NCBI GenBank assembly: GCA_013297885.1
Contig: JAAFIR010000029.1
Span: 1 to 64,000 of the forward strand
Origin: Leptospirales bacterium
Lineage (GTDB): Bacteria > Spirochaetota > Leptospiria > Leptospirales > Leptospiraceae
Length of the DNA stretch: 64,000 bases
Direction of reading: 5' to 3'
Part shown: positions 23,076-55,767 of the stretch, in pieces
How the letters are laid out: every line of letters starts with the position of its first letter
Numbering within the stretch: position 1 is the stretch's first letter
Made by a program: the position numbers and the translations under genes
Notes under the pieces: model-generated
Seen by the model: the letters and a program-made list of their open reading frames with translations, nothing else
What the model was told of the DNA's origin: nothing
Database searches by the model: none

Positions 23076-24779
23076 ATGATTTCCCAAATTTTTTCAACTG
23101 AGTTTCTTCAAGACACTGACGTAAAAGATTTTCAAAATAATGAAATTATTATGAAAGAAAACGATGAATCCAATGAAACTATGTATTTCATTTTAGCGGG
23201 AAATTGTAAAGTATATAAAACCCAAGGTGAACAAGAAATACTGATTAATGAACTCTCACAAGGTGAGTTTTTTGGTGAAATTGCACTAATTTCAAATCAA
23301 AATCGAACTGCTACAGTAAAAGTGTCCTCACAGTCAGCAAAAATATTATTATTTAGTAAAAAAAAATTTATCAACCAAACTATTTCAAATCCTGTTTTGA
23401 TGTTTTCAATATTAAAAGCAACAATTGTTAGATTTTTAAAAGCAGATTATAATTTTGAATCAATTGTTTCAACAATACCAAATTTAAATTTAGATATTTA
23501 TCAAAAACTTTCTCAAAACCCATTAAAACTTATTCATATAAAAGCATTAAATTATATTCATTCTTTACCAATATTAAATTTTTCTAACAAATTTAAAGTA
23601 TTTTCAGAAGGGAAAGAAGCTAATCAGTATATGTATTTTATTTTAAAAGGATCTATAAGTTTATTTAAAGAAGTCAAAAACAAAAAAATAGAAATTTCTA
23701 AATTAGAACTTGGAAATTTTTTTGGTGAAGTTTCTTTTATATCTGATACTCCTTATTCTTATTCAGCTATTACGACATCAGATGATGTGAGAATTGTTCC
23801 AATTGATAAAGTTGCTTTTTTAAAAATTGTAAATTTACATCCAGAATTTTTATTTAATAATTTAAAAAATGTAATCTGGAAATTAATTAATACTGAAAAA
23901 GCTGGATTTAATTTAAAATCAAAATTCCAAAAAACTGAAAGCACTTCAGACATAAAAGAATACAAAGAAGATGAATTTGTAATTCGAGAAGGTGATGAAA
24001 ATAACGAAACAATGTATTTCATTTTGGAAGGTAATTTTTCAGTTTGTAAAAATCGTGGTGATGGACTTGAAGAAGTAAATGTTTTGAAACAAGGGGACTT
24101 TTTTGGTGAATTATCATTAATTTCAAATCAACCAAGAACCGCTTCGATTCAAGTAAAGTCACATCATGCAAAACTTCTTCTAATTAGCAAAGAAAAGTTT
24201 TTACAAAAAACAAAAGAAAATCCAAATTTAGTTTACTCTATATTAAAAGCTACAATTGCCCGTTTAATAAGAGCTGAAAATAAAATTGATAAAATTATTA
24301 AATCTCTCCCAGAAATAGATCCAAGTTTAGCTGTAAGACTTCATGAATCAAGATTAGATAATTTAAATGTATTTAATTATGTTCATAATCTTCATACAAA
24401 ACTTGGTTTTAAAGGTGATCGCATTTTTACTGAAGGCGAAAAATCAGACTCTGCATTATATTTTATTTTAGAAGGATCTGTTGCTGTTATCAAAAGATAT
24501 AATAAAAGAAATTTAAAAATTGCTAATTTTGAAAAAGGTGATTTTTTTGGAGAAACAGCACTTGTCAGTGATGCAAATAGATCTCAATCAATTATGGTGT
24601 CTTCTGAGAGAGGCAAAATTGTTAAAATTGATAAATACATTTTTGATAAAATAATCCACATTAATCCAGGATTTTTATTTAGTTTGCTACGAAATGTAAT
24701 TTGGAAATTAATATTTTCTGAAAAAGCACTTTATAAATTAAATATGACAGTGGATGATATTTACGAAAGAAAGTATTAA
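23076..24779 (+). CDS. Protein with four cyclic-nucleotide-binding domains
   Basis: 567 aa made of four CNB domains and no visible effector domain. Phosphate-binding cassettes: FFGEIALISNQNRTA (65-79), FFGEVSFISDTPYSYSA (215-231), FFGELSLISNQPRTA (342-356) and FFGETALVSDANRSQS (490-505). Domains 1 and 3 have the canonical F-G-E...R-T-A that binds cyclic-phosphate. Domain 2 lacks the Arg. Domain 4 keeps Arg but has S-Q after it. The pattern 1-2 and 3-4, with a matching linker (FLKADYNFESIVSTIP / LIRAENKIDKIIKSLP), shows duplication of a two-domain module. Probably a cAMP/cGMP sensor that acts through protein contact. Its 3' end overlaps the next gene by 26 nt. Confidence 0.88.
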   Translation: MISQIFSTEFLQDTDVKDFQNNEIIMKENDESNETMYFILAGNCKVYKTQGEQEILINELSQGEFFGEIALISNQNRTATVKVSSQSAKILLFSKKKFINQTISNPVLMFSILKATIVRFLKADYNFESIVSTIPNLNLDIYQKLSQNPLKLIHIKALNYIHSLPILNFSNKFKVFSEGKEANQYMYFILKGSISLFKEVKNKKIEISKLELGNFFGEVSFISDTPYSYSAITTSDDVRIVPIDKVAFLKIVNLHPEFLFNNLKNVIWKLINTEKAGFNLKSKFQKTESTSDIKEYKEDEFVIREGDENNETMYFILEGNFSVCKNRGDGLEEVNVLKQGDFFGELSLISNQPRTASIQVKSHHAKLLLISKEKFLQKTKENPNLVYSILKATIARLIRAENKIDKIIKSLPEIDPSLAVRLHESRLDNLNVFNYVHNLHTKLGFKGDRIFTEGEKSDSALYFILEGSVAVIKRYNKRNLKIANFEKGDFFGETALVSDANRSQSIMVSSERGKIVKIDKYIFDKIIHINPGFLFSLLRNVIWKLIFSEKALYKLNMTVDDIYERKY

Positions 24780-26232: not shown

Positions 26233-28404
26233 TCATGCTCCCGAAATTTCTTTAAAAACTTTTTCAACTTCATTTGGTACAGATGTAAAATTTACTCTAA
26301 ATAAAACAGGGTTTTCAGAAATGTTTTTTGTAATTTTTGCATAAAGATCATTAGCTAACTCTTTTCCATTTTCATCAACTAGACTAACTTTTACATTATT
26401 TAATTTTTCAACTGAAATTGGGGCTTCGATTTCAGCTTCTTTTCCTGTCATTTTTAAAATTCTTCCAATATGTGTATCAGTGCTCGCGTGTTTCCCTGCT
26501 AAGATTATAAAATGGAAAAAAACTTTTTTGCTTAAAGGTTTTAGCTCAACTTCTTTTTTTTCAGGTAAAAAGATATTGTATTCACCACCAATCCCTCCAA
26601 TTTCAGAAATGATAATAGGGTTTTTTACACCTTTAGGCATCACTTCAAGTTGGTCATCAACTCTAACTAGTCCTTCACAAGCTTCAAGAGTTCTTTCAGA
26701 TACAAAAGTCTGTCCACCAACTGTATAGGATTCTATTCTAGATGTTAAATTTACATTGCTACCAACAACCCCATATTTTGTTCTTTTTTTTGAACCAATA
26801 TTACCAACAACAATTTCACCAGTGTTCAGTCCAATTCCCATTACTACTTCAGGAAGTCCGTCACGTTTGTTTCTTTCATTTACTTCTTTCATAGCAAGTT
26901 GCATTTCAATTGCACACGCAACTGCTCTTTTTGCATCATCTTCACGAATTATTGGTGCCCCAAAAATTACTAAAATTGCATCCCCAATAAATTCATCAAT
27001 TGTTCCTTGGTATTTTAAAATTACTTCAGTCATTACATCCAAATAATTATTAATCATATGTACACATTGTTCAGCAGGAAGTCTTTCTGAAATTGAAGTA
27101 AATCCTCTGAGGTCAGTCATCATGATTGTAACTTCTCTTTTTTCGCCTCCAAGAGAAAGACCTTTAGGTGTTTCTAAAATCGTGCTAACAATTTCGTCTG
27201 ATAAATATCTACCAAAAGTATCTTTAATAAATTGGTTTCTAAGATTTAATGCTTTTTTGATTCTATTTAAAATAAATGCAAGTCCCATTGCAATCATCAA
27301 GATCACTGTTGAAATTGTAAGCATGAGCTTATTGGTTTCTTTAATTGCTCCAATATAATCGTCTTCAGGAACAACTAGACCAATTGTCCAATCTTTCCCA
27401 AAAGTATCCGGAAATTTTTTATAGGATGCAATGTACTTTTTACCTAAAACTTCAAAGTTAAACTTCGGATCATCATTATTTGCTTTGTGGAATTTATAAG
27501 ATTCTTTTACAATTGGAGCTTGTTCTTCTAATTCATCAATTTTACGGGAACGATATTCATTTCCAATTTTAATCATTGGCTGGGTTACATCTGGATAAGC
27601 TACAATATCTCCTTTTGAATTGATGATAAATGCAATTGCTGTTTTTCCAGTGGCAGATTTACCATGTTTTTTTTCTTGAATTTCTTTTTGTAAATCTACT
27701 AAGAAGTTTGAAATTTCTATTAATGGAATATCTAAACCAAATATTCCTATTAGTTTTCCATTTGAAATAACAGGTGAAGATGCTGTTATTCCAGGAATTT
27801 TACCAGTGTTAAATATATAAACATCTGACCAAAATAGTGCATTTTTTTCTTTTGCACCTTTATACCAAGGCCTTTCCCTTGGATCATAATTTTCTAAAAC
27901 ATCAACTTCAGTTTTAATTGTTTTTCCAGATTGATCTCGATATATCCATGTTGTTTTTGGGATTTCTTTTTTTTGACGATCTATATTTTTTGTTGCTATT
28001 GTTCCATCTTCCATTCTTTTCTGCATAACAAAATCGCCTGATTCATTTCCAATATTGAACATAGTGAGTTGCTTATGTAATCGTAAAACGTTTATCATTA
28101 AGGAATCTAATCCTTGATTACTTAATATACTTTCAGCTCCCTCACCAGCGACTTTTGAAGATAATTCTGTCATGTCTACAGCAGTGAACAAATAGTTTGT
28201 TGTAGTTTGAATTACTCTTTTATTAATTTGTTCAATCAAATCTTCAGTTAGTTCCAATATTGCATTTGAATTTTTGTAATAGGAATAAGCAGTAACCCCA
28301 AGAACAGCAGTTACTAAAAATGTTAAGCTGAAAAAAATAATTTCAAAACTAAACTCGTTAAACTTTTTGATGACTTTTCTTAAAAAACTTTCTTTCTCTT
28401 TCAT
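26233..28404 (-). CDS. Membrane class III nucleotide cyclase with dCache sensor
   Basis: 723 aa. TM1 about 20-43, periplasmic dCache-type sensor 45-355 (contains ..YDPRERPWYKGA and GIFGLDIPL), TM2 about 360-380, cyclase domain 424-585. Metal Asp residues D431 (TDLRGFT) and D475 (IGDA) and the transition-state N552/R556 are present, so it should be active. The two base-selecting positions are unusual: E471 (DEFIGD) where adenylate cyclases have Lys, and S549 (VVGSNVN) where they have Asp. In the guanylate cyclases E occurs at the first position, so cGMP is possible. A C-terminal 100-residue PilZ-like segment (KEVELKPLSKKVFFHFIILAG... ) is of unknown function. Confidence 0.88.
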   Translation of the reverse strand: MKEKESFLRKVIKKFNEFSFEIIFFSLTFLVTAVLGVTAYSYYKNSNAILELTEDLIEQINKRVIQTTTNYLFTAVDMTELSSKVAGEGAESILSNQGLDSLMINVLRLHKQLTMFNIGNESGDFVMQKRMEDGTIATKNIDRQKKEIPKTTWIYRDQSGKTIKTEVDVLENYDPRERPWYKGAKEKNALFWSDVYIFNTGKIPGITASSPVISNGKLIGIFGLDIPLIEISNFLVDLQKEIQEKKHGKSATGKTAIAFIINSKGDIVAYPDVTQPMIKIGNEYRSRKIDELEEQAPIVKESYKFHKANNDDPKFNFEVLGKKYIASYKKFPDTFGKDWTIGLVVPEDDYIGAIKETNKLMLTISTVILMIAMGLAFILNRIKKALNLRNQFIKDTFGRYLSDEIVSTILETPKGLSLGGEKREVTIMMTDLRGFTSISERLPAEQCVHMINNYLDVMTEVILKYQGTIDEFIGDAILVIFGAPIIREDDAKRAVACAIEMQLAMKEVNERNKRDGLPEVVMGIGLNTGEIVVGNIGSKKRTKYGVVGSNVNLTSRIESYTVGGQTFVSERTLEACEGLVRVDDQLEVMPKGVKNPIIISEIGGIGGEYNIFLPEKKEVELKPLSKKVFFHFIILAGKHASTDTHIGRILKMTGKEAEIEAPISVEKLNNVKVSLVDENGKELANDLYAKITKNISENPVLFRVNFTSVPNEVEKVFKEISGA

Positions 28405-31572: not shown

Positions 31573-31688
31573 AAAAAAAATACTAAAACATCCTTAGGAA
31601 ATTTATTTCTTTTAAATCTCAGAAAAAATTCTTGTCTAGAGAATCTCATGAAAAATCATCTTAGGCAGAATTTTTTTCAGGGGTGTTT

Positions 31689-33827
31689 ATGTCAGCAGTC
31701 AAAATGAGCGTAAGATTCAGTATCGTAGGTTTTTCAACTTTAGCTGTACTTATGTTTGGTGGAATTATTAGTATAGTTTCCTACATCGGTGGAAAAAATT
31801 CAGTTCAATCTTTGGTGAATAACATAATGACTAAAGCCACTGAACACACAATTGATAAAACAAAAGATTATCTAAACTCAGCTATTGTAGTGAGTCAAAT
31901 GAATGAACAATTTTTGGGTAGTGGACTTTTAAAAACTGAAAAAGGAAAAGTAATCGAAAAATACTTTGAAGGAATCTTACGTGTTAATCCTGAATTAATT
32001 GGAATGTTTTATGGTGATACAAACGGAGATTTTGTAATGGTTAAAGAAATGACTGACAAATCCTACTCAGTTAATAAAATTATTCGCAAAGGTAAACTTA
32101 CTGAAGTAAATTGGGAACACGAAAAAAACTCTTGGTATGATGATAAACGCTTTGATGATGAAATTATTGAAACTGAAAAAGCATATGACCCAAGAACAAG
32201 ACCTTGGTACAAAGAAGCCATTACAAAAAAAACTTATTCATGGACTGATGTGTATGTTTTTTTTACAGATCGAAAACCAGGGATCACATGTAGCAAAGCA
32301 GTGTATGATAAAAAAGGAAATTTGATAGGTGTTATTGGAATTGATATTAGCATCAAAGAATTTTCCGAATTTTTATCTGGAATAAAAATTGGTGAAACTG
32401 GAAAAGTTTTTTTATTAGATGCAAAACAAAAAGTTGTTGCAATTCCTTCACCTGATCAAGCTACTCACGATAAACTATTAAAAGAAGAAACAGATGCTAA
32501 TGGAAAAAAATCGCTTACCTTAATTAAAGCTGATGTGTTAGAAGATAAAGAAATTTCTAGTGCATTTATCAATTTTGAAAAACAAAAAGAAGAACTTACA
32601 AAAGAAAATAAAACTTTTTTTGAATTTAAAAATGATGGAATAAGTTATTTTGCAAAATTTGTCCCTTTTAAAATGGATGATATTGAATGGACAATTGGAA
32701 TCGTTGTGCCTGAAAATGAATTTATGAAAACCGTTCATAGAAATAACCAAATCATTATGGCATTATCTATAATAATTATCATCATTGCAGTTTTATTTGA
32801 ATATAGTTTTTCAAAAAAAATATCTAAACCACTTACCCAGCTTTCTGAAGAAATGAAAAAAATTCAAAATTTTGATTTATCATCCAATGTTGAAGTTCAT
32901 TCTTTTTTGATAGAAGTAAACAATATGACTCATTCCTTTAATAAAATGAGAACTGGTCTTCGCTCATTTAAAAAATATGTTCCTGATGAATTAGTTCGTG
33001 AATTGATTTCATTAAATAAAGAAGCAGTTTTAGAAGGAGAACGTAGAGAACTAACTATGTATTTTTCGGATATTAAAGGATTTACAACTATTTCAGAAGA
33101 GCTTAATCCTGAGGAATTGGTAGAACAACTTTCTGAATATTTAGGTGAAGCTTCTAAAACTGTTGTTGACCATCATGGCACATTAGATAAATATATTGGA
33201 GATGCAGTAATGGCTTTTTGGGGAGCACCAAAACCTCTAGAAGATCATGCACTGATGGCTTGTAAAGCCGCATTAGAACATAAAAAAAATTTAAAGAAAA
33301 AAAATGCTGAACTAGTAGCAAAAGGTAAAACTCCATTTTATGATAGAATTGGAATTCACACAGGTGAAGTAATTGTAGGAAATATGGGATCTGAGAACCG
33401 TTTAAACTATACTGTAATTGGTGATTCTGTAAATCTTGCAAGTCGCCTCGAAGCAATTAATAAATTTTATGGTTCTGATATAATTATTTCTGAAACAACT
33501 TACAATTATGTGGAAGATAAATTTCTAGTGAAAATGCTTGACTTAGTTGCTGTTAAAGGTAAATCCAAAGCGATTGAAATTTATGAATTAATTTCTGATA
33601 TTGATGAAGCAAGTCTTGAAGAAAAAAAATACATTTCCAATTTTAATGAAGCAGTTTTTGAATATCGAAAAAAAGGTTTTGTAGCTGCAATTAAACTTTT
33701 TGAATCTTGTTTAAGATTAAATCCAAATGACTACACAGCAAAACTATATTTAGAACGATGTAATCATTATTTGACATATCCTCCAAGTGAAAATTGGACA
33801 GGGGTGCATGAATCAAAAGAAAAATGA
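31689..33827 (+). CDS. Membrane adenylate cyclase with dCache sensor and C-terminal helical repeat
   Basis: 712 aa from the ATG at 31689 (AGGGG 5 nt upstream, better placed than the GTG at 31683). TM1 about 15-35, periplasmic dCache domain to about 350 (YDPRTRPWYKEA, GVIGIDISIK), TM2 about 355-375, HAMP-like linker, cyclase domain from about 455. FSDIKGFT supplies the metal Asp, DKYIGDAVMAFWG has the adenine-selecting Lys and second metal Asp, and YTVIGDSVNLASR has the adenine-selecting Asp and the N/R pair: a complete adenylate cyclase. The end (IKLFESCLRLNPNDYTAKLYLERC) is a TPR-like motif. A conserved leader motif is present about 40 nt upstream. Confidence 0.9.
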   Translation: MSAVKMSVRFSIVGFSTLAVLMFGGIISIVSYIGGKNSVQSLVNNIMTKATEHTIDKTKDYLNSAIVVSQMNEQFLGSGLLKTEKGKVIEKYFEGILRVNPELIGMFYGDTNGDFVMVKEMTDKSYSVNKIIRKGKLTEVNWEHEKNSWYDDKRFDDEIIETEKAYDPRTRPWYKEAITKKTYSWTDVYVFFTDRKPGITCSKAVYDKKGNLIGVIGIDISIKEFSEFLSGIKIGETGKVFLLDAKQKVVAIPSPDQATHDKLLKEETDANGKKSLTLIKADVLEDKEISSAFINFEKQKEELTKENKTFFEFKNDGISYFAKFVPFKMDDIEWTIGIVVPENEFMKTVHRNNQIIMALSIIIIIIAVLFEYSFSKKISKPLTQLSEEMKKIQNFDLSSNVEVHSFLIEVNNMTHSFNKMRTGLRSFKKYVPDELVRELISLNKEAVLEGERRELTMYFSDIKGFTTISEELNPEELVEQLSEYLGEASKTVVDHHGTLDKYIGDAVMAFWGAPKPLEDHALMACKAALEHKKNLKKKNAELVAKGKTPFYDRIGIHTGEVIVGNMGSENRLNYTVIGDSVNLASRLEAINKFYGSDIIISETTYNYVEDKFLVKMLDLVAVKGKSKAIEIYELISDIDEASLEEKKYISNFNEAVFEYRKKGFVAAIKLFESCLRLNPNDYTAKLYLERCNHYLTYPPSENWTGVHESKEK

Positions 33828-34048: not shown

Positions 34049-35080
34049 ATGAAATTTTTTAGAAAAATGTTCAACTGGAAATTTATTTTAATTCTTTTAC
34101 TTGGAATTTTTTTGATTCCAAAAAAAGCAAAAGCAGTTGATCAAAATAGATTTAATTCTCTTTCAAAAACAAAATCTGGAATGCCGTTTAATAAAAATGG
34201 TAGATTTAAGTCTCCATTTGCAAATCCAAATTTTGGTGAGCCTTGTAACGTAAAAGTTGGTTTTTTATTAAAAAGTATAACTTCTTACTCTGTAAAAGAA
34301 GGAAAATTTGAAGCAGATTTTTATATTTCCTATACATCTGATAAACCAATGCCTGGTGAAATTAGTCCACATTTTACAAATGGGATTTTAGATGATGACG
34401 ACCATGTTACTTTAATTTCAGATACACCAACATTTAAACTTTGGAAATACCATGCAGTTTTTTTTCATGAAGCAGATTTAAGAGCTTATCCTTTTGATAC
34501 ACAAGAGTTAGAAATTGGTGTGGAAGAATCAGATGTGGGAATTGATCAAATTAATTTTATAGCTGATCCTGAGCATACAAAAATTGATTCTGATTTTTTA
34601 ATGCCTGGTTGGGAAGTGTCTTATGTGGAATCTCGTGTGCTGACTCATTATTATCCAGATAGATTTGAACATGACGATTTGTATTATCCAAGATATATTT
34701 TTAGACTTGGCATTCAAAGATTTTCAAACAATGCACTCTTTACAGTTTTTTTACCAGCATTTGTAATTGTGTTAGTTTCACTTTCAGGAATTTGGCTTTC
34801 TGGAAAAGAAGTGGAAACAAGAATTAATTCTTCAGCTCCAATGCTTGCTGCAGCAGTATTGTTTCATTATACTCTTTCCCAAGAGATTCCTGCAACTGCT
34901 TATCTCACAAGAGCAGATAAATTGATGATGGGAGTTTATCTTGGACTAATGATGAATTTATTTGCGACTTGGGCGTTTTTCTTTTTTGATCCTAAACATG
35001 AAGAATTGATTTTTAAACTTGGGAAATACATTGTTCCTCCTTTAAATTTAATTTTATTTGTTGGAGGTTCTGTATTATGA
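34049..35080 (+). CDS. Pentameric ligand-gated ion channel homologue (Cys-loop receptor family)
   Basis: 343 aa. Signal peptide (FILILLLGIFLIPKKAKA), extracellular beta-sandwich about 50-235 with AYPFDTQELEIGVE (the family's F/Y-P-F-D-x-Q motif), then four helices: M1 ALFTVFLPAFVIVLVSLSGIW (about 232-255), M2 INSSAPMLAAAVLFHYTL (pore-lining), M3 LTRADKLMMGVYLGLMMNLFATWAFFFF and M4 YIVPPLNLILFVGGSVL. The Cys-loop disulphide is not visible, as in prokaryotic members such as GLIC/ELIC. Ligand unknown. Its end overlaps the next lipoprotein gene by 4 nt. Confidence 0.85.
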   Translation: MKFFRKMFNWKFILILLLGIFLIPKKAKAVDQNRFNSLSKTKSGMPFNKNGRFKSPFANPNFGEPCNVKVGFLLKSITSYSVKEGKFEADFYISYTSDKPMPGEISPHFTNGILDDDDHVTLISDTPTFKLWKYHAVFFHEADLRAYPFDTQELEIGVEESDVGIDQINFIADPEHTKIDSDFLMPGWEVSYVESRVLTHYYPDRFEHDDLYYPRYIFRLGIQRFSNNALFTVFLPAFVIVLVSLSGIWLSGKEVETRINSSAPMLAAAVLFHYTLSQEIPATAYLTRADKLMMGVYLGLMMNLFATWAFFFFDPKHEELIFKLGKYIVPPLNLILFVGGSVL

Positions 35081-35535
35081 AATTTATTTTACTTCTTTTA
35101 ATTTTATTTTGCAGAGAGAATAAAGATTTTGTTTCCAATGTGGAAATTGTGAGAATAGAAAAAGTAAAATCTGAAAAAGATGGAAAACCAATTATTTCAG
35201 ACATAGAAATTTCTTATAAAGATTGTCCGGGAAGACAATTTGAAATTATACGTGGTGGAAAAGAATTTTCTGAATGTATATTTTCAAAATACAAAGTTGG
35301 AAATTTTGTAAATGTAGATATCAATTGGAAATGGGATAGCTTTGGATATTACAAATGGTCTGTAAAAAAAATTGGAGATTGTGATAGAATTTTTGACGCA
35401 CTTGATGAAGTGTCATATGATTTAGTTGAAGAATGTGAAGACTATAATATTTATGGTGAAAAAGTTGGTTTTACTTGTAGAAGAATTCCCACTTCCAATT
35501 TAATCGCAAAATGTCCTTGGTTTAGAAAAAAGTAA
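35077..35535 (+). CDS. Cysteine-rich lipoprotein coupled to the channel gene
   Basis: 152 aa. The N-terminus MKFILLLLILFC looks like a short lipoprotein signal (lipobox ILFC). Mature part has six or more cysteines (DCPG, SEC, GDCD, EEC, TCRR, AKCPW), so disulphide-bonded periplasmic or surface fold. Overlap of 4 nt with the channel gene (ATGA) suggests co-translation and a possible accessory role. No family recognised. Confidence 0.7.
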   Translation: MKFILLLLILFCRENKDFVSNVEIVRIEKVKSEKDGKPIISDIEISYKDCPGRQFEIIRGGKEFSECIFSKYKVGNFVNVDINWKWDSFGYYKWSVKKIGDCDRIFDALDEVSYDLVEECEDYNIYGEKVGFTCRRIPTSNLIAKCPWFRKK

Positions 35536-35567: not shown

Positions 35568-35703
35568 GCGAAAGTGATAGAAACGTCATCAAAAAATTTC
35601 TATTGAAATTTTTTGATGGGAGTTGAAAGCACGGTTTTTTAAGTAAGAATAGTAAGGACTTAATTAATTAAGTCCTTACTATTCTTACTTAAAAAATTCG
35701 CCC
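35568..35703 (-). repeat. Structured two-arm repeat, copy R8 with perfect 62-nt palindromic arm
   Basis: Minus strand: box A GGGCGAA, P2 arm is an uninterrupted palindrome at 35635-35696, box B ACCGTGCTTTCAACTCC, P3 arm CATCAAAAAATTTC/GAAATTTTTTGATG, box C CGTTTCTATCACTTTCGC. P4 is GTG/CAC (plus 35630-35632 and 35574-35576). P1 is GCGAA/TTCGC. The palindromic arm has no unpaired loop, so extruded it is a 31-bp arm with a tight turn. Confidence 0.9.
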
Positions 35704-44706: not shown

Positions 44707-46105
44707 GTTCTACACCAATAAAACTAATATCATCCTGTAAATTTTCTCTACCTGCAAATTGTTCTAAGTCTTTCATAATTTCTGAAAATACTTCTTTAAT
44801 TTCTTTATCTGAATAGGCTTTTATAGCACTAATAATTTTTTCTTCACCAAATTCTACTTTTTCTTTATTAAATACTTCAAATAAACCATCAGTGAATAAA
44901 AATAATTTATCATTTTGCTCAAATGAAATTTCCACTTCTTCATATTCAGAATCTTTACTAACTCCAACTAATTTTCCTGTACGTTGTAATGTTTGAATTT
45001 CCCAATTTTTTTTCTGTAAAATTTGATCTGGGTGACCAGCTGAAGCAAAAATAAGTTTATCTTTTAAAGGAAAAATATCTACGATAACACATGAAAAAAA
45101 ACTATTTAGAGAAGAATATTTTGTACTAAAATTATGATTTAATTCTTTTAATAATTTTTTTGGGTGAGAGTGTTCATGTTTTAAACTTTCATATTCTGAT
45201 TTAATAAGCATAGTAATTAATGCAGCTTGAATACCATGCCCTGTAGCATCAGCCAAAAATATTCTTATCTGTTTTTTATTTAATTCATAAATATCATAAA
45301 TGTCACCACCAATTTCTTCGAGCGGAAAATATCCTATTTCAAAAATACAATTTTGGGAGCAATCAAAACTTTTTTGAACTAAATTTGATTGAATTTTTTT
45401 TGCAACAGAAATGTCTTTTTTGATTAAATTTAAAGTTTTATTTTGCTCAAAAGTTGTTGATTCTAATTTTTTTGATTTAATAAAATCCTGAAGTTTATAA
45501 TGAAACAAAACAAGATTCAAAGTATAAGCTAAAAAAATACATAAGATAGAATTAAGGGAATTTAATATAAATGTTTCATTATCTTTTTGAATAAAATACA
45601 TTAAAGTCACAAAAAATATTAAAAATAAGGGGTAAAAAACTGTACTATATCTTTTGAAAGTAACAAATAGTGATGCAAGTAATACTGAACCTGTGCTAAA
45701 AAAAACAATGTTACCATTATTGTATTGAGAAGAAAGTGAAGATGAAGCAAATAAAATAAAATAAATAAGAATAAAAAGTAAAATTAATGGAGAAGGTAAC
45801 AATTTATTTTTTAAAATAATTTTATTTAGTATTAATAATAAAAATGAAAATCCAATACCTAAATGGTGAGAAGTGAATAATAATCCACAGTATTTTAAAT
45901 TATTTTCACAATATCCATTTTTATAAATTAAATAATGAGCTAAAAAAGCAAATGGAGAAAGTGAAATAATGATTAAAGCAAAAGCATTTAATCTACTTAA
46001 ATTTTCTTTGTCTAATTTTTCTCTAAATTCATTTCTTAATTGATTTGGTATACCAATATAAATTTTTTTATATAAATCTCTTAAAATTAATATCAATTTA
46101 AGCAT
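44699..46105 (-). CDS. Membrane PP2C-type (SpoIIE/RsbU) phosphatase
   Basis: 468 aa. Seven or so membrane helices in the first 200 residues, a short coiled-coil linker (KLESTFEQNKTLNLIKKDISVAKKIQ) and a PP2C domain about 225-468. VAKKIQSNL, GGDIYDIYEL (metal Asp), FLADATGHGIQAAL (metal Asp) and LFLFTDGLFEV (D-G) match the SpoIIE/RsbU family. It should dephosphorylate a STAS-type antagonist such as the one at 14102-14443, but no direct evidence links them. Overlaps the MORN gene by 13 nt and the WG gene by 8 nt. Confidence 0.9.
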   Translation of the reverse strand: MLKLILILRDLYKKIYIGIPNQLRNEFREKLDKENLSRLNAFALIIISLSPFAFLAHYLIYKNGYCENNLKYCGLLFTSHHLGIGFSFLLLILNKIILKNKLLPSPLILLFILIYFILFASSSLSSQYNNGNIVFFSTGSVLLASLFVTFKRYSTVFYPLFLIFFVTLMYFIQKDNETFILNSLNSILCIFLAYTLNLVLFHYKLQDFIKSKKLESTTFEQNKTLNLIKKDISVAKKIQSNLVQKSFDCSQNCIFEIGYFPLEEIGGDIYDIYELNKKQIRIFLADATGHGIQAALITMLIKSEYESLKHEHSHPKKLLKELNHNFSTKYSSLNSFFSCVIVDIFPLKDKLIFASAGHPDQILQKKNWEIQTLQRTGKLVGVSKDSEYEEVEISFEQNDKLFLFTDGLFEVFNKEKVEFGEEKIISAIKAYSDKEIKEVFSEIMKDLEQFAGRENLQDDISFIGVEHA

Positions 46106-46773
46106 TTTGCTTCTTCAGTTTTAGTTTTTATACAATTTAATTTTCCATCTGAAAAATAAGTTTCTCTAATTATTAAATTTGATTTTTGATCAAAAATTTC
46201 TTTTGATTCTAATTTTCCATTAGGATAATAATATTCCCATTTTCCAATTTTATTTTCTTTTTTATAACTTCCTAAATATTCCAATTTACTATTTTGATAA
46301 TACTTTTTAAATTCCCCATTTTTATATCCAGTATGAAAATTTCCTTCCTCTTCTAATTTTCCATTTGGATAATAACGAGAAACTTTTCCATGTTCAGTTC
46401 CGATTTGACAGGTATCAACAATAAAATCTTGTCTTCGATTCGCTGCAGAAAATTCTTGCTTATAATAAATATTTCCATTTGGAAAATACCAATACCAAAG
46501 CCCATCTTTTAAACAATTCTTGTAAAATCCTTTACTGATAATATTTCCATTTTTTTCCGAATAAGAAATATATTCTCCTTCAAAAAGACCAGTGGTAGGA
46601 TTTAAGAAAGCTTTTGAATAAATTTTTCCAGAATCATACCAAACTTGTTCAAATTCTTTTGTTCTTAAAACATAAATATTTTTTTTTCTATCAAATTTAG
46701 CTTCCGTTGGAATTCCGTTAGGATTTGAGCGTTCTTTGCAAAAAATTAAAAAGAATAAAAATAAAAATTTCAT
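46093..46773 (-). CDS. MORN_2-repeat lipoprotein
   Basis: 226 aa. Short lipoprotein signal (FLFLFFLIFC, lipobox LIFC). At least four 22-residue MORN_2-type repeats: KNCLKDGLWYWYFPNGNIYYK, GTEHGKVSRYYPNGKLEEEG, GYKNGEFKKYYQNSKLEYLG and KENKIGKWEYYYPNGKLESKE. These beta-hairpin repeats are usually surface or membrane-binding. Overlaps the phosphatase gene by 13 nt. Confidence 0.88.
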   Translation of the reverse strand: MKFLFLFFLIFCKERSNPNGIPTEAKFDRKKNIYVLRTKEFEQVWYDSGKIYSKAFLNPTTGLFEGEYISYSEKNGNIISKGFYKNCLKDGLWYWYFPNGNIYYKQEFSAANRRQDFIVDTCQIGTEHGKVSRYYPNGKLEEEGNFHTGYKNGEFKKYYQNSKLEYLGSYKKENKIGKWEYYYPNGKLESKEIFDQKSNLIIRETYFSDGKLNCIKTKTEEAKCLN

Positions 46774-54402: not shown

Positions 54403-55767
54403 ATGAATGAAACTTTATTCTCTGAAAGAATTAATAAAATTTTAAATGATAAATCAAAATGGACAAAAGAAATTTCTACAATTTCAAATTGGTTAAAAAA
54501 ATCTGATACATTTAGTAAACATAGAATTAACTTAAAAAAATTAAGTATTGAACTTGGAATTGATTTCAAAATTCTTTGTGGAATTTTTTTAAAAGGTGTC
54601 AAAGAATCAGTATTTCAATTACTCTGGGATATTCATTGCCCGCATTGTAATATGATTACATCTGAACATAATCATCTTTCTGAAATAAGTTCCAATTCAA
54701 ATTGTAAAATGTGTGATATTGAATTTACTCCTGATTTTGTTATGAGAGTTGAATCTAGTTTTACTATGCATCCTGAAATTGAATTAATTGATATTCCACC
54801 ATTTTGTATTCCTCCAAAGAAAATTCCAATTTTGGCAAACTTAGTAACAGAACATGGTCAAACCAAAGAAGTAGAATTTGAATTTACTAAACCAGGAAAT
54901 TATCGATATTTTTGTCCAATTACAAATACAATTGGAAAGCTCTCCGTTATTGATAATGAAGAAAGTTCAACTCAAAAGATGAATATTGAGCAATTAGAAC
55001 ACTCTAAATTTAATTTAAGCAATATGAATTTTAATTTAGGCAAAGTTCTTTTAACACTAACAAATTCATCAGTTCCGTTAAGTGGAATATTTGTGACTCC
55101 TGATGAATTAAATGAACCACTTAGTTTTGAAGATATGGACATTCGAGTTTCAGGATTAGAACTAACTCATATTCCAGAATTTGTAGAAATTTTTGGATCA
55201 GAAACAATTAGCCTCAAAGAAAAAATGACAATTTCTACAATTTCAATATTGTTTACAGATATAACTGGTTCAACAAAAATGTATGAAGAGCTTGGAGATA
55301 TAACTGCTTATAATAATGTTAGAGATCATTTTGAAATTTTAAGTAAAATAATTTCCAAATATGGTGGGAAGTTAGTAAAAACAATTGGTGATTCCGTTAT
55401 GGCATCTTTTTTAGAAGCAGACTTAGCTGTTAAAACTGTTTTTGAATCATTAAAAGAGTTTCATTTGTACAATGAATCCAAAAAAGATAAAGAAAAAATT
55501 AAATTAAAAATGGGTATTCACACAGGAAATTCCATATTGGTAAATTTAAACAATCAATTAGATTATTTTGGAACAACTATTAATACAGCAGCAAGAATTC
55601 AAAATCTATCCAATGAAGAAAACTTTTGTTTATCAGAAAATACCCTAAATTCAAAAAACGTAAAAGAAACTTTAAAAGAAAATGGAATTAAAAAAATTAC
55701 AAAAAAAAATGTTGAACTTAGAGGACTTGCAAATAAACAAACAGTATATTTTGTTCCAACAAATTAA
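54403..55767 (+). CDS. Soluble class III nucleotide cyclase with zinc-ribbon-like N-terminal domain
   Basis: 454 aa, no membrane segment. N-terminal part resembles DUF5939-type cyclase partners, with two Cys pairs CPHC..CKMC (near 84-108) that could bind zinc, and a beta domain to about 280. Cyclase domain about 285-450: ILFTDITGST (metal Asp), LVKTIGDSVMASF (Lys and second Asp), YFGTTINTAARIQ (Thr where membrane ACs have Asp, then N/R). Probably makes cAMP but the base-selecting Asp is replaced. Followed by R11. Confidence 0.85.
   Translation: MNETLFSERINKILNDKSKWTKEISTISNWLKKSDTFSKHRINLKKLSIELGIDFKILCGIFLKGVKESVFQLLWDIHCPHCNMITSEHNHLSEISSNSNCKMCDIEFTPDFVMRVESSFTMHPEIELIDIPPFCIPPKKIPILANLVTEHGQTKEVEFEFTKPGNYRYFCPITNTIGKLSVIDNEESSTQKMNIEQLEHSKFNLSNMNFNLGKVLLTLTNSSVPLSGIFVTPDELNEPLSFEDMDIRVSGLELTHIPEFVEIFGSETISLKEKMTISTISILFTDITGSTKMYEELGDITAYNNVRDHFEILSKIISKYGGKLVKTIGDSVMASFLEADLAVKTVFESLKEFHLYNESKKDKEKIKLKMGIHTGNSILVNLNNQLDYFGTTINTAARIQNLSNEENFCLSENTLNSKNVKETLKENGIKKITKKNVELRGLANKQTVYFVPTN

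Follow-up and report, generated by a model that had tools for sequence, protein, structure and literature searches.

Bacterial pentameric ligand-gated ion channels (pLGICs) serve as structural models for nerve receptors, though, to our knowledge, their natural ligands and physiological roles are largely unknown. The stretch of Leptospirales DNA analyzed here (the window, 64,000 nucleotides) encodes a homologue of such a channel followed by a small cysteine-rich predicted lipoprotein. Does a bacterial pLGIC have a dedicated lipoprotein partner, as the initial annotation proposed from this arrangement, or do the two genes merely lie side by side? Both open reading frames lie where they had been placed, and the channel stop codon (TGA) and lipoprotein start codon (ATG) share 4 nt in an ATGA overlap (35077..35080, + strand).

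The channel gene (34049..35080, + strand) encodes a 343-aa protein of the Pro-loop type with a signal-like N terminus, a periplasmic beta-sandwich, and four transmembrane (TM) helices. The protein had no Pfam match, and the NCBIfam models LIC (5e-7) and LGIC_1 (2e-6) matched below their curated cut-offs. A phmmer comparison connected it to GLIC at 1e-9, and a profile built from its clade did so at 4e-17. An AlphaFold2 model (pLDDT 77) comprised a beta-rich extracellular domain and four predicted TM helices, the number given in the initial annotation, and Foldseek matched this model to GLIC and GABA-A receptors (E about 1e-19). The predicted helices are M1 (residues 229-248, 34733..34792), the pore helix M2 (residues 252-279, 34802..34885), M3 (residues 288-312, 34910..34984), and M4 (residues 315-342, 34991..35074), all on the + strand. 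By homology, Pro-loop motif, and predicted fold, the protein is a prokaryotic pLGIC homologue, i.e., a Pro-loop receptor.

Several sequence features define the clade to which this channel belongs. The Pro-loop, initially read as F-P-F-D-Q, is in fact Y-P-F-D-T-Q (residues 147-152, 34487..34504, + strand); its Y, P, F, D, and Q are invariant across the clade and fit the pattern [FYW]PFDxQ. The two cysteines that flank this loop in animal Cys-loop receptors are absent from the window channel and from every other clade channel aligned. Directly ahead of the first beta-strand lies an S-P-F-A motif (residues 55-58, 34211..34222, + strand) that is invariant in 14 clade channels and missing from 11 outgroup pLGICs. 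M2 follows the clade pattern R-x-N-x-x-x-P-M-L-A, in which the Pro and Met are clade specific in the alignment. The usual 9' gate position is Ala when counted back from the conserved M2-M3 proline, an assignment that rests on the GLIC alignment.

The second gene (35077..35535, + strand) encodes a predicted lipoprotein of 152 aa that begins with a short, signal-like segment running up to Cys12. The initial annotation counted at least six cysteines; there are seven, namely the lipobox Cys12 (35110..35112, + strand) and Cys50, 67, 102, 120, 134, and 146 (codons starting at 35224, 35275, 35380, 35434, 35476, and 35512, within 35224..35514, + strand). Every one of the 57 copies compared retains all seven. 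The protein had no sequence match in Pfam, NCBIfam, or the PDB, and at a relaxed Pfam threshold (E of 0.1) none of 18 family members matched any domain, PBP and Cache domains included. We found no description of this previously unnamed family in the literature searched, a body that excluded most subscription journals. The AlphaFold2 model (pLDDT 90, pTM 0.79) is a beta-barrel with a helix, and its nearest PDB folds in Foldseek were OB folds, with those of SSB best, all as weak matches (E of 0.03 at best). As the six cysteines beside the lipidated one are even in number, they likely form three disulfides, in a presumed pairing.

The lipobox of the window protein (LILF/CREN, slash marking the predicted cleavage site ahead of Cys12) has Phe at position -1, as do the Leptospiraceae copies. 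Textbook lipobox patterns exclude Phe at this position. Among 349 open reading frames from the same genome (taken from the window and about 0.36 Mb of further genomic sequence), 4 of 39 lipoprotein-like N termini had Phe at -1, and the myxobacterial homologues described below carry ordinary lipoboxes (LLGC, LASC) at the cysteine aligned with Cys12. Both observations make acylation at Cys12 likely, judged from sequence. Further predicted lipoproteins with Phe ahead of the lipobox cysteine (LIF/C, ILF/C) were seen at 46093-46773 of the window and at L103:14643-15300, and these sequences suggest a relaxed lipobox in the window's lineage.

Within 61 related genomes, the lipoprotein was found in three, the window genome (G000) and two other Leptospiraceae (G005 and G007), in each case as the next gene after the channel and with the identical ATGA overlap. 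The channels of G005 and G007 are 63 to 66% identical to that of the window. When 218 Spirochaetota genomes were searched with a profile, no lipoprotein beyond those three was recovered. Other pLGICs (about 22 to 30% identity) in further related genomes had no lipoprotein within 1.5 kb, which ties the lipoprotein to one channel clade rather than to bacterial pLGICs generally. The window genome itself encodes one more pLGIC, which is only distantly related (about 30% identity; G000:C4:18481-19206, minus strand, L017) and has no lipoprotein alongside it.

The pair also occurs in Myxococcota, where relatives were recovered by searching public genomes with the channel alignment. A Myxococcales MAG (L022) encodes a channel of about 50% identity with three lipoprotein copies around it. 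Of 379 Myxococcota genomes surveyed, 9 carried the clade channel (E below 1e-130); all of these also had the lipoprotein, as did one further genome (9/9 channel-bearing genomes versus 1/370 others). Within the order of L022 (184 genomes), the channel was found in 39, the lipoprotein in 38, and both in 37, so that the lipoprotein was present in 37/39 genomes with the channel versus 1/145 without it. The Fisher P values for these surveys (2e-17 and 3e-35, respectively) are inflated by phylogenetic non-independence; the pattern is nevertheless patchy and repeated. In the two channel-only genomes of the order, the channel match is located at the start of a contig or close to it. One genome (G382) contains the lipoprotein, and no channel was found in it. 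Three channel loci in contigs longer than 10 kb had no lipoprotein nearby (G123, G094, and G635), nor did one channel copy in the closed genome G672, and of 58 lipoprotein matches, 13 were additional copies, either separated from every channel by more than 10 kb or located on a different contig. At G123, the gene after the clade channel encodes another kind of predicted lipoprotein (264 aa, LAGC lipobox; L071:3824-4618, minus strand).

Co-occurrence and a conserved neighborhood in relatives, which the initial annotation had named as the check on its proposal, were thus found in both Leptospiraceae and Myxococcota. Channels lacking the lipoprotein, which it had taken to argue against coupling, were found among the distant pLGICs outside the clade; inside the clade they amount to the two contig-start genomes and a few unlinked copies.

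In a phylogenetic tree, the clade channels are monophyletic (support 100/100), and those of the three Leptospiraceae genomes group together inside the wider clade. This position, together with the restriction of the lipoprotein to 3 of 218 Spirochaetota genomes, makes horizontal acquisition likely, its direction being presumed. Plasmids contained no relative of the lipoprotein and only distant pLGICs, on two plasmids, and viral contigs yielded no relative with queries other than the lipoprotein alignment. The branching of the lipoprotein tree largely mirrors that of the channel tree, and the distance matrices of 11 adjacent pairs are correlated (Mantel r = 0.86, P = 5e-5). Mirror-tree agreement is expected for any co-inherited genes. 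G339 contains two pairs, and each groups with its own partner lineage.

A functional link between channel and lipoprotein is well supported by these data. The two genes are encoded together, persist as a pair in two phyla, are inherited jointly, and have diversified in parallel, and an adjacent pair conserved in this way suggests that the channels operate with a dedicated, hitherto undescribed helper protein. We propose that the lipoprotein is a dedicated lipid-anchored periplasmic accessory of the inner-membrane Pro-loop channel, with which it would physically associate, and we assign this reading a probability of roughly 0.6. It is also the most economical explanation, requiring one small anchored protein per channel clade.

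An alternative, which we consider unlikely, is that the lipoprotein is the primary binding protein for a ligand or metal and passes the ligand to the channel, in the manner of stand-alone PBP-II and Cache proteins. The published PBP-II and Cache neighborhoods of bacterial pLGICs (PMC549065) provide a precedent, and the OB-like fold of the model and the invariant cysteines would suit a binding function. Genomic context adds to this in one branch. Sixteen myxobacterial channels form a single subclade (support 100/98), and at 15 of its loci a gene for a 190-aa protein comes after the channel gene, often with the lipoprotein gene next in line. The 190-aa protein (L072:8597-9163, L073:15109-15693, and 13 further loci) is predicted to be held in the membrane by a single N-terminal TM segment and contains two invariant cysteines; the one copy tested matched nothing in Pfam. 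This membrane-anchored, periplasmic protein may be a further accessory of the channel. An RND pump is encoded close by, on the strand opposite to the channel, at 14 of these 15 loci (L072, L073, L160, L173, L174, L176-L182, L184, and L185). The pumps are 59 to 68% identical to the L072 pump (or are that pump itself), which scored 1,122 bits against a CusA/CzcA model with a cut-off of 701. The type-B lipoproteins of G382 and G094 also adjoin a CusA/CzcA-type pump.

A CusA/CzcA-type pump beside the channel indicates a metal-related role for that branch only, and under the accessory reading, too, the pump-linked subclade probably responds to a metal ion or to metal stress. Neither the 190-aa protein nor the RND pump extends beyond this one subclade; no pump lies near the window pair or beside the Leptospiraceae pair, which speaks against the binding-protein alternative. 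The lipoprotein furthermore resembles neither PBP nor Cache nor any other known binding domain, and its cysteine spacing fits disulfides, not a metal cluster.

A second alternative, distinctly improbable in our judgment, holds that channel and lipoprotein serve the same pathway, e.g., an envelope-stress or metal response, at neighboring places without ever touching, and that their adjacency reflects co-regulation only. The arrangement of the genes bears on this from both sides. Among 46 channel loci in the Myxococcota order (184 genomes), with distances taken between profile matches, the lipoprotein lies within 110 bp at 22 (13 downstream on the same strand and 9 convergent), within 1.3 kb at 33, and within 10 kb at 39; six of the remaining loci have no lipoprotein on the contig, and one has it at a distance. 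Retention of adjacency in both orientations implies that local inversions occurred without parting the genes. The convergent order at many loci rules out a single operon there, yet the genes stay adjacent, which a shared pathway could explain, as it could the unlinked extra lipoprotein copies.

In contrast, an accessory protein is favored over co-regulation by the ATGA overlap, which recurs in both phyla (G289 and G339 in Myxococcota, in addition to the Leptospiraceae), and by near-perfect co-occurrence of two genes that share no other neighbors outside the pump-linked subclade. No third gene family surrounds most pairs; only the channel and the lipoprotein are common to them. The Cache/cyclase gene upstream of the window pair and the hydrolase and FMO genes downstream are not kept beside the pair elsewhere. 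Chance adjacency of a channel gene and an ordinary lipoprotein gene might be entertained since ATGA overlaps are common in bacteria and lipoproteins abundant in Leptospiraceae, but it is refuted by co-occurrence (P = 3e-35 in the Myxococcota order) and by synteny conserved in two phyla.

The surroundings of the pair in the window have features of their own. Three class III adenylate/guanylate cyclases are encoded (31683-33827, 26233-28404, and 54403-55767), two with dCache sensor domains, and one of the three ends about 220 bp ahead of the channel gene. Positions 23076-24779 encode a protein that has four cyclic-nucleotide-binding domains. The interval that follows the lipoprotein gene, ahead of the next gene, contains a perfect 62-bp palindrome (35635-35696; 31-nt arms, no spacer). 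Relatives of it, about 72 to 100% identical, are scattered through the genome (63 matches, many representing the two strands of one place), and the palindrome resembles a dispersed repeat or a mobile palindromic element more than an operon-specific terminator.

If the lipoprotein is a channel accessory, a mechanism can be outlined. The protein would be acylated at Cys12 and, once in the periplasm, would adopt a small OB-like barrel stabilized by three disulfides. It would then sit beside the periplasmic domain of the channel, perhaps touching the clade-specific N-terminal SPFA segment, a candidate docking site, and could tune channel assembly, gating, or ligand access, as Ly6/Lynx proteins do for nicotinic receptors. 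In some genomes, synthesis of the two proteins may be translationally coupled. A counter-reading is that the lipoprotein may act in the outer membrane and not beside the channel. A broader formulation, which we advance tentatively and at somewhat less than even odds, is that these lipoproteins constitute the first family of dedicated auxiliary subunits for a bacterial pLGIC, each a lipid-anchored, three-disulfide periplasmic protein that gates or tunes its channel in parallel to Lynx, with one branch linked to metal-efflux pumps and hence to metal sensing. If this holds, members of this receptor superfamily come under auxiliary control in organisms other than animals as well. A conserved, separate partner and, in one branch, a constant metal-efflux neighbor provide a concrete handle on channel roles.

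The pair can be compared with four known systems. GLIC and other prokaryotic Pro-loop receptors share with the window channel a periplasmic beta-sandwich, a YPFD-Q Pro-loop, four TM helices, and the lack of Cys-loop cysteines. The window channel differs in belonging to a separate clade (at least 44% identity to it among 11 aligned members, about 22 to 30% for other pLGICs of related genomes) with the SPFA segment, the R-N-P-M-L-A pore pattern, and the co-encoded lipoprotein. Tasneem et al. described PBP-II, Cache, and Na+/H+ symporter proteins as operon partners of bacterial pLGICs (PMC549065). The PBP-II and Cache cases likewise combine a pLGIC with a separate periplasmic protein in a predicted operon, whereas the partner here is a small seven-cysteine predicted lipoprotein, unrelated to PBP or Cache and retained in two phyla. 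That paper does not use the word "lipoprotein", and an inventory of Pro-loop receptors (PMC4795631) does not mention operons; the lipoprotein is not among the published operon partners of bacterial pLGICs. DeCLIC also carries an extra periplasmic module, which binds calcium, but this module is fused to the N terminus of the channel (PMC12664993), while the module described here is predicted to be a separate, lipid-anchored protein. Finally, the GPI-anchored Lynx1/Ly6 modulators of nicotinic receptors (PMC6502960) have a three-finger fold, unlike the OB-like lipoprotein model, and no sequence relation to it; the analogy is one of arrangement, in which a small, cysteine-rich, lipid-anchored extracytoplasmic protein acts, or here would act, on a pLGIC.
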